From assembly GCA_021776525.1 (NCBI GenBank), contig JAJFFT010000006.1, positions 496,001 to 560,000 on the forward strand: 64,000 nucleotides of DNA. The letters are read 5' to 3'. This stretch comes from Robiginitomaculum sp. (lineage in GTDB: Bacteria; Pseudomonadota; Alphaproteobacteria; Caulobacterales; Maricaulaceae). This document shows positions 36,218 through 57,879 of this stretch, piece by piece (position 1 is the first letter of the stretch; each line of letters starts with the position of its first letter). The position numbers and the translations under genes are program-made. The notes below the pieces were generated by a model. That model saw nothing but the letters and a program-made list of their open reading frames with translations, searched no databases and was not told the DNA's origin.

Positions 36218-37405
36218 GACCAGAAGCGCCTTGTCAAATATGGCGCGATCTAAAAACCCGTCAGGAACAAGACCGTTGGCCCGCTGAAAAGCCCGCAAGG
36301 CGCGGCGGGTACGGGGACCGGATATGCCATCGGGCTTGCCAGGGTCAAATCCGGCTTGTGTCAGGGCGTTTTGCAAGGCTTTGATCTGGGTCCGCGAGAG
36401 CCGTCCTGTACTTGATGGCCATGAGGCCCGCACCGCTTGGCGGCCGTCCAGCACCTCGGACAACAGGCCCACGCCAAGCGCATAGGCCGTCGAGTTGTTA
36501 TAACGTTTGATCACTCGAAAGTTTTTAGAGACCAGAAAGGCAGGGCCTTTATAACCCGCCGGTAAAATCAGCCAGGCCGGGCGGCTTTGCTCAACCATGG
36601 ACCAGATGGTGTGGTCGGCCTTGACCGCGCCGCGTACGCTCCACGAGCCAATGCTGAGTACTGAATCTTCGGCCAGCTCAAAGGGAAAACTGTCAGGTAT
36701 TTCCACCTCAACGCCCCAAGGTTCGTCGCCTTTCCAGCCATGACGGGAAAGATAATAAGCCGTCGAGGCCAGCGCGTCGGCGCTGGACGTCCAGATATCC
36801 TTTCGCCCGTCCCGGTCCCAATCCACAGCATAATCCAGATATGAGGTGGGTAAAAACTGGGTCTGGCCCATGGCCCCGGCCCAGGCACCTTTCAGCTCGT
36901 CCCGGCTGGCATGGCCATTGTTGAGAATTTTCAAAATGGCCATCAGTTCGCCTTCGGCCCAGGCTCGGCGGCGACCATCATGGGCCAAAGTGGCCAAAGA
37001 GCGGACCACATCGAAATTGCCCTGAAAGCGCCCATAAGCACTTTCCAGCCCCCAAACGGCGCTCAGGACAGAGGCCGGGACATGATAAAACGTGGAAATT
37101 TCATCGAACAAAGCGGCGTGCTCGGTCAGCATGTTGCGGCCCGCATTGATACGGGCATCAGACAGAACACCTTTCAGATAGTCGGCAATGGTGCGGGTAA
37201 ATTCGGGCTGTGCACCATCACGCTCTAAAACATCGGGGTCCGGTGTCAGGCCATCAAAAGTTTGTGTAACCAGCGCCTCATCAAACCCGGCGGCGATGGC
37301 GCGGGTTTTAAAATCGGCCAGCCATGTATCGAAACTGGCCTCTGTGGACAATGCCGGGGTGGCAAGGGCGCACATATAAAGGACGAAAACCCTCAATATT
37401 CTCAT
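36164..37405 (-). CDS. Lytic murein transglycosylase (MltB type) with peptidoglycan-binding domain
   Basis: A 413-residue exported enzyme: signal peptide (1-20), SLT_2 catalytic domain with the acid/base Glu in VWGLESAYGRFQG, the AMGQTQFLPTSYLDYAVDWDRDG stretch typical of MltB, and a C-terminal PG_binding_1 domain (from about residue 325, GFDPGKPDGISGPRTRRALR). It cleaves glycan strands in the periplasm. It is coupled to the upstream DUF1194 gene (ATGA at 37402-37405). Confidence 0.92.
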   Translation of the reverse strand: MRILRVFVLYMCALATPALSTEASFDTWLADFKTRAIAAGFDEALVTQTFDGLTPDPDVLERDGAQPEFTRTIADYLKGVLSDARINAGRNMLTEHAALFDEISTFYHVPASVLSAVWGLESAYGRFQGNFDVVRSLATLAHDGRRRAWAEGELMAILKILNNGHASRDELKGAWAGAMGQTQFLPTSYLDYAVDWDRDGRKDIWTSSADALASTAYYLSRHGWKGDEPWGVEVEIPDSFPFELAEDSVLSIGSWSVRGAVKADHTIWSMVEQSRPAWLILPAGYKGPAFLVSKNFRVIKRYNNSTAYALGVGLLSEVLDGRQAVRASWPSSTGRLSRTQIKALQNALTQAGFDPGKPDGISGPRTRRALRAFQRANGLVPDGFLDRAIFDKALLVLANPGNAPIGQSQNGGQ

Positions 37406-38142
37406 GGCTGCATACCTCTGCTAGTCAGCGAGGGAACGACATTATCGGCAATTTCCAAAATCATCTTGCGCAACACCGCCTTTTTGAAATCATCAAAATC
37501 CCGTGCCGGTATAACAAAGGCCCCAGGTCCGGCAATCACCTGATTGCGATAATAGTTATCAATTTCGACGCTCACCCGTGGCCGCCACGGGTTTTGCTTT
37601 TCTGAAATAATCGGCAGGCCGTTGATGACAATATCTTGTGCGGCGGCGCGCTGGCGGGCAGTTTCCAGATTGGCCCCCTGATTTTGCGGCCCATCGCCGG
37701 AAATATCGACAACCCGGCGCAGGCCTTTGGCGTTATTGGTGGCAAACAGGCCCATGGCGCGTTCCAGCATGCTGCCAATGGCGGTGTAATGACCTTGCAC
37801 AAACGGGGCGTCCTGCACCTGTTTGGCAAAGGCGGCGGCGTCTGCCTGACTTTGGATAATGGTCCAGGGGGCAACGATGCGCTGCATCGAGCTGTCCGCC
37901 CATTCTACATAGGTGACGGCGATGCGACCACGCGGTCCAGAACGAATGGCATCCACCACCTCTTCGCTTTGCAGGGCTGCTACATAGCCATCACGCTGTT
38001 TTCGGGCTTCGCTTTCATCGACGGAAAAGGAAATGTCGACGGCCAGAACCAGCTCCAGATCAACATCTATGGCGGCGACAGATGCCGGGCTGCCGGTGAT
38101 TAAAAAGACAAAGGCGGCCAGCAGAGGCAGAAGTGTTTTCAT
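37402..38142 (-). CDS. DUF1194 von Willebrand A-type exported protein
   Basis: A 246-residue protein with a signal peptide (about 1-23) and a von Willebrand factor A-like domain whose metal site reads AVDISFSVDES (DxSxS). Later motifs HYTAIGSML and VDISGDGPQNQG match DUF1194. The role is unknown; such domains mediate metal-dependent protein contacts. Its stop overlaps the start of the lytic transglycosylase gene, suggesting an envelope function. Confidence 0.85.
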   Translation of the reverse strand: MKTLLPLLAAFVFLITGSPASVAAIDVDLELVLAVDISFSVDESEARKQRDGYVAALQSEEVVDAIRSGPRGRIAVTYVEWADSSMQRIVAPWTIIQSQADAAAFAKQVQDAPFVQGHYTAIGSMLERAMGLFATNNAKGLRRVVDISGDGPQNQGANLETARQRAAAQDIVINGLPIISEKQNPWRPRVSVEIDNYYRNQVIAGPGAFVIPARDFDDFKKAVLRKMILEIADNVVPSLTSRGMQP

Positions 38143-38193
38143 GGTGTAACAATGCCGGGGTTTTCGTGCTAAATCAATTTACAGATTGTTTGG

Positions 38194-38222
38194 TTGACAC
38201 ATGGGTCTGCTGACCATAAATT
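38194..38222 (+). promoter_or_regulatory. Sigma-70 promoter of rpmJ
   Basis: TTGACA at 38194-38199, a 17-base spacer and TAAATT at 38217-38222, nearly consensus. Transcription should start near 38229, about 53 bases upstream of the rpmJ ATG. Nothing else on this strand lies nearby, so rpmJ (and the HAD gene 5 bases after it) are the likely targets. Confidence 0.7.
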
Positions 38223-38236
38223 CCGCGCCTTGATGA

Positions 38237-38266
38237 AACCCGCCCACATCGGTGCGGGGTTTTTTT
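38237..38266 (+). terminator. Terminator-like hairpin in the rpmJ leader
   Basis: CCCGC and GCGGG pair across a ten-base loop, flanked by AAA on the left, and are followed by seven T residues (38260-38266). It lies between the rpmJ promoter and start, so it would end the transcript after about 38 bases unless read through. An attenuator, or a site where the transcript is regulated, is a reasonable inference. Confidence 0.55.
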
Positions 38267-38281
38267 ACGAAATATGGTCCG

Positions 38282-38407
38282 ATGAAAGTCAGAAGCTCAC
38301 TTAAATCTTTGAAAAACCGCCACCGCGATTGCAAAGTTGTGCGCCGCAAAGGTCGGGTCTATGTCATCAACAAGACTGACCCGCGTTTCAAAGCACGCCA
38401 AGGCTGA
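38282..38407 (+). CDS. rpmJ: 50S ribosomal protein L36, zinc-free type
   Basis: A 41-residue protein beginning [14 protein letters not shown] and ending PRFKARQG, unmistakable L36. Only one cysteine (Cys17) remains: the other zinc ligands of the Cys3-His form are Asn and Phe, as is usual in alphaproteobacteria. It is too short for most gene callers' default lists. The ribosome-binding site is weak. The next gene starts five bases after the stop. Confidence 0.95.
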
Positions 38408-38412
38408 TTATC

Positions 38413-39045
38413 ATGGGCGACATGTGCGCCCACAGCCTTCGACATAAAATTTTCCTTTTTGATATTGGCAATGTGCTTATGCGGTGGTCGCCGCGTAATC
38501 TCTATGTGCGCCGGTTTGACAGTGCAGACGAGATGCAGCGGTTTTTCGATACCTGCTGTACCCAAAGCTGGCACGAGGCGCATGATCGCGGCGTGCCAAT
38601 GGCACAAAATGCCAAACCCCTGATCAAGCAATTCCCCCACTGGGCCGATCATATCCGCGCCTGGAAGGACGAATGGAACCAGATGTTTGATGGCGCCATG
38701 CCGGGGGCAGTAGAGCTTCTGGCTGATCTGGCGGCGCAAGGCGTGCCGCTTTATGCGCTGACCAATATGCCGGCCGAGGTTATGCCGGGCCTGCGCCGGA
38801 TGTTCCCGCATTTATCGCACTTTACCGATATTATTGTTTCGGGCGAAGAGGGCGTGTTGAAACCCGACCCGAAGATTTTTGAGATTGCCGCAAAACGTTT
38901 GAAGGCGGCCCCCAAAGATATCTTTTTTATTGACGACAGCGCCGCCAATGTTGCTGCGGCCCGCATGATGGGTTTTGATGCCGTGGTTTTTACGAATATG
39001 GATGCTTTACGCGAAACCATAAAGCGTGGTGGTTTGGCGCTCTAA
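38413..39045 (+). CDS. HAD-superfamily hydrolase (YihX-like)
   Basis: A 210-residue haloacid dehalogenase-like phosphatase. Motif I is FDIGNVLMRW with the nucleophilic Asp, motif II TNMP, motif III around KPDPKIFEIA and motif IV FIDDSAANV. DxGNV replaces DxDxT, the pattern of the YihX and epoxide-hydrolase N-terminal subgroup; E. coli YihX hydrolyses glucose 1-phosphate. Substrate here is unknown. It follows rpmJ by five bases and overlaps the convergent aldolase gene by four. Confidence 0.87.
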   Translation: MGDMCAHSLRHKIFLFDIGNVLMRWSPRNLYVRRFDSADEMQRFFDTCCTQSWHEAHDRGVPMAQNAKPLIKQFPHWADHIRAWKDEWNQMFDGAMPGAVELLADLAAQGVPLYALTNMPAEVMPGLRRMFPHLSHFTDIIVSGEEGVLKPDPKIFEIAAKRLKAAPKDIFFIDDSAANVAAARMMGFDAVVFTNMDALRETIKRGGLAL

Positions 39046-49569: not shown

Positions 49570-49682
49570 GGTATTCTCCTGTGCGACACACACCCGCACA
49601 CCATGTGCGGGCTTCACGTTTGTCGTCACAACGAAACCATTTCGCGCCATGACCCTGATCCCGGGGTATGGGCGGACGAGCG

Positions 49683-49859
49683 GCATCGGCAGGTCTTCCG
49701 ACTCACGGCTCAGATGCTGTGATGCGCCTTCCCAGAATAAATTCCAGTGGACTATGCACCACGGCTTGCCGTTTACGGCTGCGGGGACAGCTGCGGGTTT
49801 AGGCATAATGCCTGCACCGCATTCCCTATTATCCCGTGCCAGAGCACGAGGACCGATGC
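49683..49859 (-). ncRNA. Cobalamin riboswitch upstream of btuB
   Basis: Read on the minus strand: the closing helix P1 is GCATCGG (49859-49853) with CCGATGC (49689-49683); between them come GGGAATGCGGTGCA, CCGCAGCTGTCCCCGCAGCC, the core CCACTG, GGGAAGGCGC and the B12 box GTCGGAAGACCTGCC. These are the conserved blocks of the AdoCbl-type riboswitch in order. The expression platform is the 113 bases to the GTG start; a 7-bp hairpin at 49593-49611 lies just before the ribosome site, so control of translation is likely. Confidence 0.93.
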
Positions 49860-49862
49860 GGC

Positions 49863-49891
49863 TTGATAAGCGCGTAGATCAGTTTGGGCAA
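49863..49891 (-). promoter_or_regulatory. Likely promoter of the B12 uptake operon
   Basis: On the minus strand TTGCCC, a 17-base spacer and TATCAA end four bases before the first base of the riboswitch P1 helix, so transcription would begin at the riboswitch. The hexamers match the sigma-70 consensus only partly. Confidence 0.45.
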
Positions 49892-57843: not shown

Positions 57844-57879
57844 AAAAACCGCCGCGTCAAAACTGACCGGCGGTTTTTT
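57844..57879. terminator. Bidirectional terminator between natB and rpsU
   Basis: AAAAACCGCCG and CGGCGGTTTTT form an 11-bp stem with a 13-base loop. On the plus strand it ends in six T residues, on the minus strand in five, so it can serve both convergent units. Confidence 0.85.

Follow-up and report, generated by a model that had tools for sequence, protein, structure and literature searches.

Here, we report a G+C-rich hairpin and a run of seven T residues between the sole promoter and the start codon of rpmJ (ribosomal protein L36) in Robiginitomaculum sp. (the window is the whole 64,000-nucleotide stretch of DNA that was analyzed, and all coordinates refer to it). The hairpin occupies the position of a 5' untranslated region (5'-UTR) attenuator, is crossed by every rpmJ transcript, and is conserved together with its T-run in relatives, where the sequence of the stem has been exchanged. 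As far as sequence can tell, the chances are about even that hairpin and U-run act as a weak, leaky, and sensorless intrinsic terminator that sets rpmJ output. Little is known of how ribosomal-protein genes outside the large operons are coordinated with the others, and the regulation of rpmJ in Escherichia coli has been called unclear (PMC10931766). If this reading is true, a terminator too close to its promoter for a sensor would be among the simplest possible attenuators.

The rpmJ gene (38282-38407, plus strand; Pfam Ribosomal_L36, E value of 6e-21) encodes 41 amino acids, including one Cys, and is present as a single copy in the 2.96-Mb genome. A HAD-family hydrolase gene (38413-39045, plus strand) starts 5 nt after it and is probably cotranscribed with it, hence behind the same hairpin; it does not adjoin rpmJ in every relative. 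The upstream neighbor, a DUF1194 gene (37402-38142, minus strand; open reading frame and Pfam), is divergent, as is the upstream frame in 15 of 15 readable loci of the genus (16 loci; the contig of the 16th ends too early). The hairpin was therefore ruled out as the 3' terminator of the upstream gene.

Sequence inspection and a promoter scan placed the -35 element TTGACA at 38194-38199 and, after a 17-nt spacer, the -10 element TAAATT at 38217-38222 (both plus strand), which together match 10 of 12 consensus positions. The G+C-rich stretch CCGCGCC (38223-38229, plus strand) lies between the -10 element and the likely start point; a CCGCGC-type stretch after the -10 was retained across many relatives in the rpmJ leader comparison, and this discriminator may serve in stringent control. 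The hairpin CCCGCCCACATCGGTGCGGGG (38239-38259, plus strand; stem CCCGCC...GCGGG) consists of the 5' arm CCCGCC, a variable 5-nt loop, and a 3' arm with one-base bulges. It lies 16 nt from the -10 element and would begin about 8 to 10 nt past the start point, as placed from the -10. The seven-T run (38260-38266, plus strand) follows directly and ends 15 nt before the rpmJ ATG (38282). These coordinates (38194-38266) confirm the order of promoter, G+C hairpin, and seven T residues before rpmJ that was described in an initial annotation of this DNA. No second promoter fits within the 15 nt between the T-run and the ATG, and because this gap is too small and the upstream gene is divergent, every rpmJ transcript crosses the hairpin. 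An AT-rich block, AATCAATTTACAGATT (38172-38187), lies just 5' of the -35 element and is retained whole or partly in many rpmJ leaders of the genus; it may belong to the divergent promoter or act as an UP element.

The 40-nt piece with the hairpin folded at -12.9 kcal/mol (9 of 200 shuffles were as good), and the 30-nt core was equaled by 7 of 200 shuffles. The fold of the whole 73-nt leader was unremarkable (114/200 shuffles as good). Taken alone, the window hairpin is modestly above chance. A d'Aubenton-type score (formula from the literature, with RNAfold energies replacing the original ones) gave a d of 1.9, compared with 27.9 and 25.2 for two 3' terminators elsewhere in the window, and leaky read-through is therefore expected. 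Strict terminator scans did not list the rpmJ hairpin, because its stem has one-base bulges. What the window holds is a candidate intrinsic terminator by its parts, a G+C stem-loop directly before a U-rich tract, in a weak form. The initial annotation had held that rpmJ would be silent unless read through; passage is indeed obligatory, but silence is too strong a word for a terminator of this score.

The rpmJ leaders compared came from the genus, 50 Brevundimonas genomes, other genera within the family and order, and 108 genomes spread over the class. Within the genus, 17 of 18 genomes matched and 16 rpmJ leaders were obtained, the remaining match being partial and without a leader. Distinct leaders with a d of >-10 were counted as terminator-like and compared with dinucleotide shuffles. 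In the window's genus (g1), 9 of 13 distinct leaders were terminator-like (shuffle mean, 0.1; maximum, 1), a count that leaves out one leader with unread bases; under a looser rule, hairpin and T-run were found in 13/14, with 20 sets of shuffles giving 1 to 5. Brevundimonas gave 33 of 39 (shuffle mean, 1.8; maximum, 5), and two further Caulobacterales genera gave 5 of 8 (g7; shuffle mean, 0.3) and 4 of 10 (g5; shuffle mean, 0.3). The class-wide set contained 10 among 102 leaders (shuffle mean, 1.6; maximum, 3), and none was found among 81 leaders from other Caulobacterales (shuffle mean, 0.1). At a d of >0, the counts were 7 for the genus, 28 for Brevundimonas, 5 for g7, 4 for g5, 7 for the class, and 0 for other Caulobacterales. 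The comparative evidence is stronger than that from the single sequence, with the predicted element far above chance in relatives. Leaders with the element are longer from -10 to ATG (median, 66 versus 44 nt), as if 20 to 30 nt had been inserted. Departures within the genus were L010, which keeps the stem and has no T-run, and L002, L022, and L025, which are weak; some g5 leaders (L185, L193, and L195) have a strong 5' hairpin without a T-run. The overall stability of g1 leaders is ordinary (median z, -0.42). A TTGAC-type promoter with 17-nt spacing precedes rpmJ nearly throughout the sampled leaders. In the class-wide Alphaproteobacteria (L248-L275 and L296-L375), 103 distinct rpmJ leaders have a promoter-like TTGAC-N17-TA site and 5 have none by the rule applied.

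The window's clade comprises six distinct leaders. The 5' arm and the first five T residues are the same in all of them, variation in the 3' arm is confined to one bulged base, and each of the five loop bases varies. Other g1 clades carry different stems at the same place (e.g., GGAGCCA...TGGCTCC and GAGCC...GGCTC). Conservation of the stem in relatives, which had been named as a check, is found for the arms within the window's clade; between clades, stem sequence differs wholly. When arms were swapped among 18 examples, picked because they form hairpins, duplex energies were -12.1 kcal/mol for self and -5.4 kcal/mol for cross pairings; arms of different clades paired poorly. A paired C-G to T-A change separates the stems of the g5 leaders L036 and L184, and the inner Brevundimonas stem was mildly more stable than its shuffles (10/24 in the 10% tail). 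An automatic covariation alignment (five Brevundimonas rows left out) failed to register stems and loops of unequal length, and its pair counts were not used. Arm retention, loop variation, and stem turnover are consistent with selection acting on the presence of a hairpin, whatever its sequence.

The stretch upstream of the hairpin, where about 8 to 10 nt of RNA would precede the stem, is too short for an antiterminator or sensor, and in a 150-nt fold the sole alternative helix involves pairing to the rpmJ coding region, downstream. Rfam gave no family match near rpmJ (subthreshold hits only, at E values up to 10); at the gathering threshold, the only match in the whole window was a cobalamin riboswitch (49671-49872, minus strand; 121 bits). 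A leader-peptide attenuator was rejected: the ATG at 38233 opens a short frame that is unconserved in relatives, being GTG in L004, shifted by one base in L009, and without an ATG in L010-L013.

Leaders of other ribosomal-protein genes served as controls. In the last 75 nt of g1 leaders, hairpin and T-run were found in 1/14 for L28, 0/16 for S20, and 4/16 for L31 (three of the four overlapping the -10 element itself), compared with 13/14 for rpmJ by the same rule, although promoters of the control leaders are similar in layout to that of rpmJ. These L28, S20, and L31 genes (L376-L423) have their own promoters, that of L31 being TTGCCC-N17-TATAAGCCGCGC. Specificity for rpmJ held in g1 and failed in Brevundimonas, where rpsT (S20) leaders (L424-L451) carry a promoter-proximal hairpin, CGCCGTGGA...CGGCG, with TTTT after it; 18 of 28 pass the T rule, and the others have a similar stem. 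The element is therefore no signature of L36. Rfam had no match on the one Brevundimonas rpsT locus scanned (L424).

Attenuation had been offered as a fair guess, and as a reading it stands, given obligatory passage and the recurrence of hairpin and T-run above shuffles; we infer termination itself, the read-through fraction, and any regulation, conditional control included. RNA polymerase would fire often from the near-consensus promoter with its G+C discriminator and would meet a weak terminator at about +30 to +36 of the rpmJ transcript. Part of the complexes would halt in the U-run, releasing an RNA of roughly 30 to 36 nt, and the remainder would read through to give rpmJ mRNA, making the element a fixed, leaky throttle whose stopped fraction would be set by the stem and U-run themselves. 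Since neither a sensor nor an antiterminator would fit, any regulation would come from general factors acting on polymerase (NusA/NusG, polymerase speed, or NTP or ppGpp state), with no dedicated ligand. The same hairpin might instead be a nonterminating 5'-terminal stem-loop that protects the mRNA against 5'-end-dependent decay or leaves the start region accessible; the U-run would then be an unstructured standby site for ribosomes at a start codon without a clear Shine-Dalgarno (SD) sequence. We regard this main rival as possible, though rather unlikely. It is consistent with the 5' hairpins that lack a T-run in part of g5 and in L010, with the absence of an SD-like motif directly before the window rpmJ ATG (sequence inspection) and from 162 of 305 distinct rpmJ leaders, and with the report that most Caulobacter starts lack an SD (PMC4117421). 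However, stems with a T-run behind them greatly outnumber those in shuffles, and the 81 leaders from other Caulobacterales manage without a terminator-like element. That the hairpin is neutral, or arose by chance in a leader rich in G+C, would suit the modest excess of the single sequence over its shuffles and the absence of the element from most Caulobacterales genera, but recurrence above shuffles across the genus and across Brevundimonas makes it improbable.

The initial annotation had also suggested autogenous control by a ribosomal protein, with the hairpin loop as a possible binding site. Attenuation of a responsive kind, in which termination would change upon binding of L36, some other ribosomal protein, or a different factor to the leader, has parallels in known ribosomal-protein leaders (PMC7247131), and the hairpin and T-run of Brevundimonas rpsT leaders would agree with it. 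We nevertheless consider it quite unlikely: with the loop the most variable part of the element in the window's clade and the arms nearly constant, with stems and loops unrelated between clades, and with no Rfam match, the leader offers no conserved protein-binding motif, and the RNA before the stem is too short for a sensor and has no alternative helix upstream. The variable loop and clade-specific stems speak against a protein-binding loop, and both suggestions went unsupported. The short RNA could also be the main product and act as a small regulatory RNA whose 3' end the terminator forms, rpmJ being expressed via read-through; 5'-UTR terminators can yield trans-acting small RNAs such as UpsM in Rhodobacter (PMC5089854), but a length of only 30 to 36 nt and the lack of a conserved single-stranded seed between clades leave this very improbable. 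Returning to the sensorless terminator, a broader and speculative proposal, for which we see only a small chance, is that Alphaproteobacteria repeatedly evolved such a minimal attenuator, a bare terminator about 10 nt past the start point of ribosomal-protein genes outside large operons (rpmJ in many lineages and rpsT in Brevundimonas). Supply of these proteins would then follow the general state of RNA polymerase in elongation and termination and would not depend on protein feedback. Brevundimonas offers culturable lineages for a direct test of the rpmJ element.

Terminators in 5' UTRs are a known kind and are reported to be weaker than 3' ones (PMC2965389); what is unusual here is the nearness to the promoter, the turnover of sequence, and the recurrence in separate lineages. 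By analogy, the nearest precedent for the putative rpmJ element is the rimP-leader, a short terminator hairpin with a T-stretch that lies within the 5' UTR of a gene linked to the ribosome and has no visible antiterminator in most species, for which NusA was proposed as the regulator (Naville and Gautheret 2010, PMC2965389). Before rimP the stem is GGGc...gCCC and is conserved, and that leader occurs in distant phyla, whereas the element here precedes rpmJ and has a stem, CCCGCC...GCGGG in the window, whose sequence is unconserved. The main text of PMC2965389 mentions neither rpmJ nor Caulobacter. The mraZ leader of Rhodobacter, source of UpsM, likewise has a Rho-independent terminator in an alphaproteobacterial 5' UTR behind the gene's own promoter, but that leader is 268 nt long, compared with about 50 nt for rpmJ, and its product is likely a trans-acting small RNA (PMC5089854). 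Autogenous leaders of ribosomal-protein genes (20 candidates, PMC7247131) share the placement of a leader element before such a gene and differ in their conserved, often rRNA-like motifs, none of which was seen in the rpmJ leader; rpmJ is not mentioned in the main text of PMC7247131. Caulobacter GafZ at terGTA (PMC11150451) is a case from the same order of a terminator behind a promoter with factor-controlled read-through; it differs in belonging to a GTA cluster, in its dedicated antiterminator, and in the long repeats, rich in GC, that lie after the first gene. For rpmJ, no dedicated factor like GafZ was found. The pntA motif of Pelagibacter (PMC2704228) lies after rpmJ and was set aside as unrelated. 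No report of an rpmJ leader hairpin was found in the literature searched, a scope outside which most subscription papers fell.

Across the 2.96-Mb genome, the pattern TTGACN18TANNNT occurs at 15 sites and its reversed form at 69, a scarcity that looks like avoidance of promoter-like sequences. Among the 15 sites, only rpmJ has a strong hairpin and T-run downstream, and two of the other 14 (L208 and L209) have a weaker hairpin and T-run. Elsewhere in the window, positions 57849-57873 hold a terminator-like hairpin that looks perfect and bidirectional, with a T-run on each strand.
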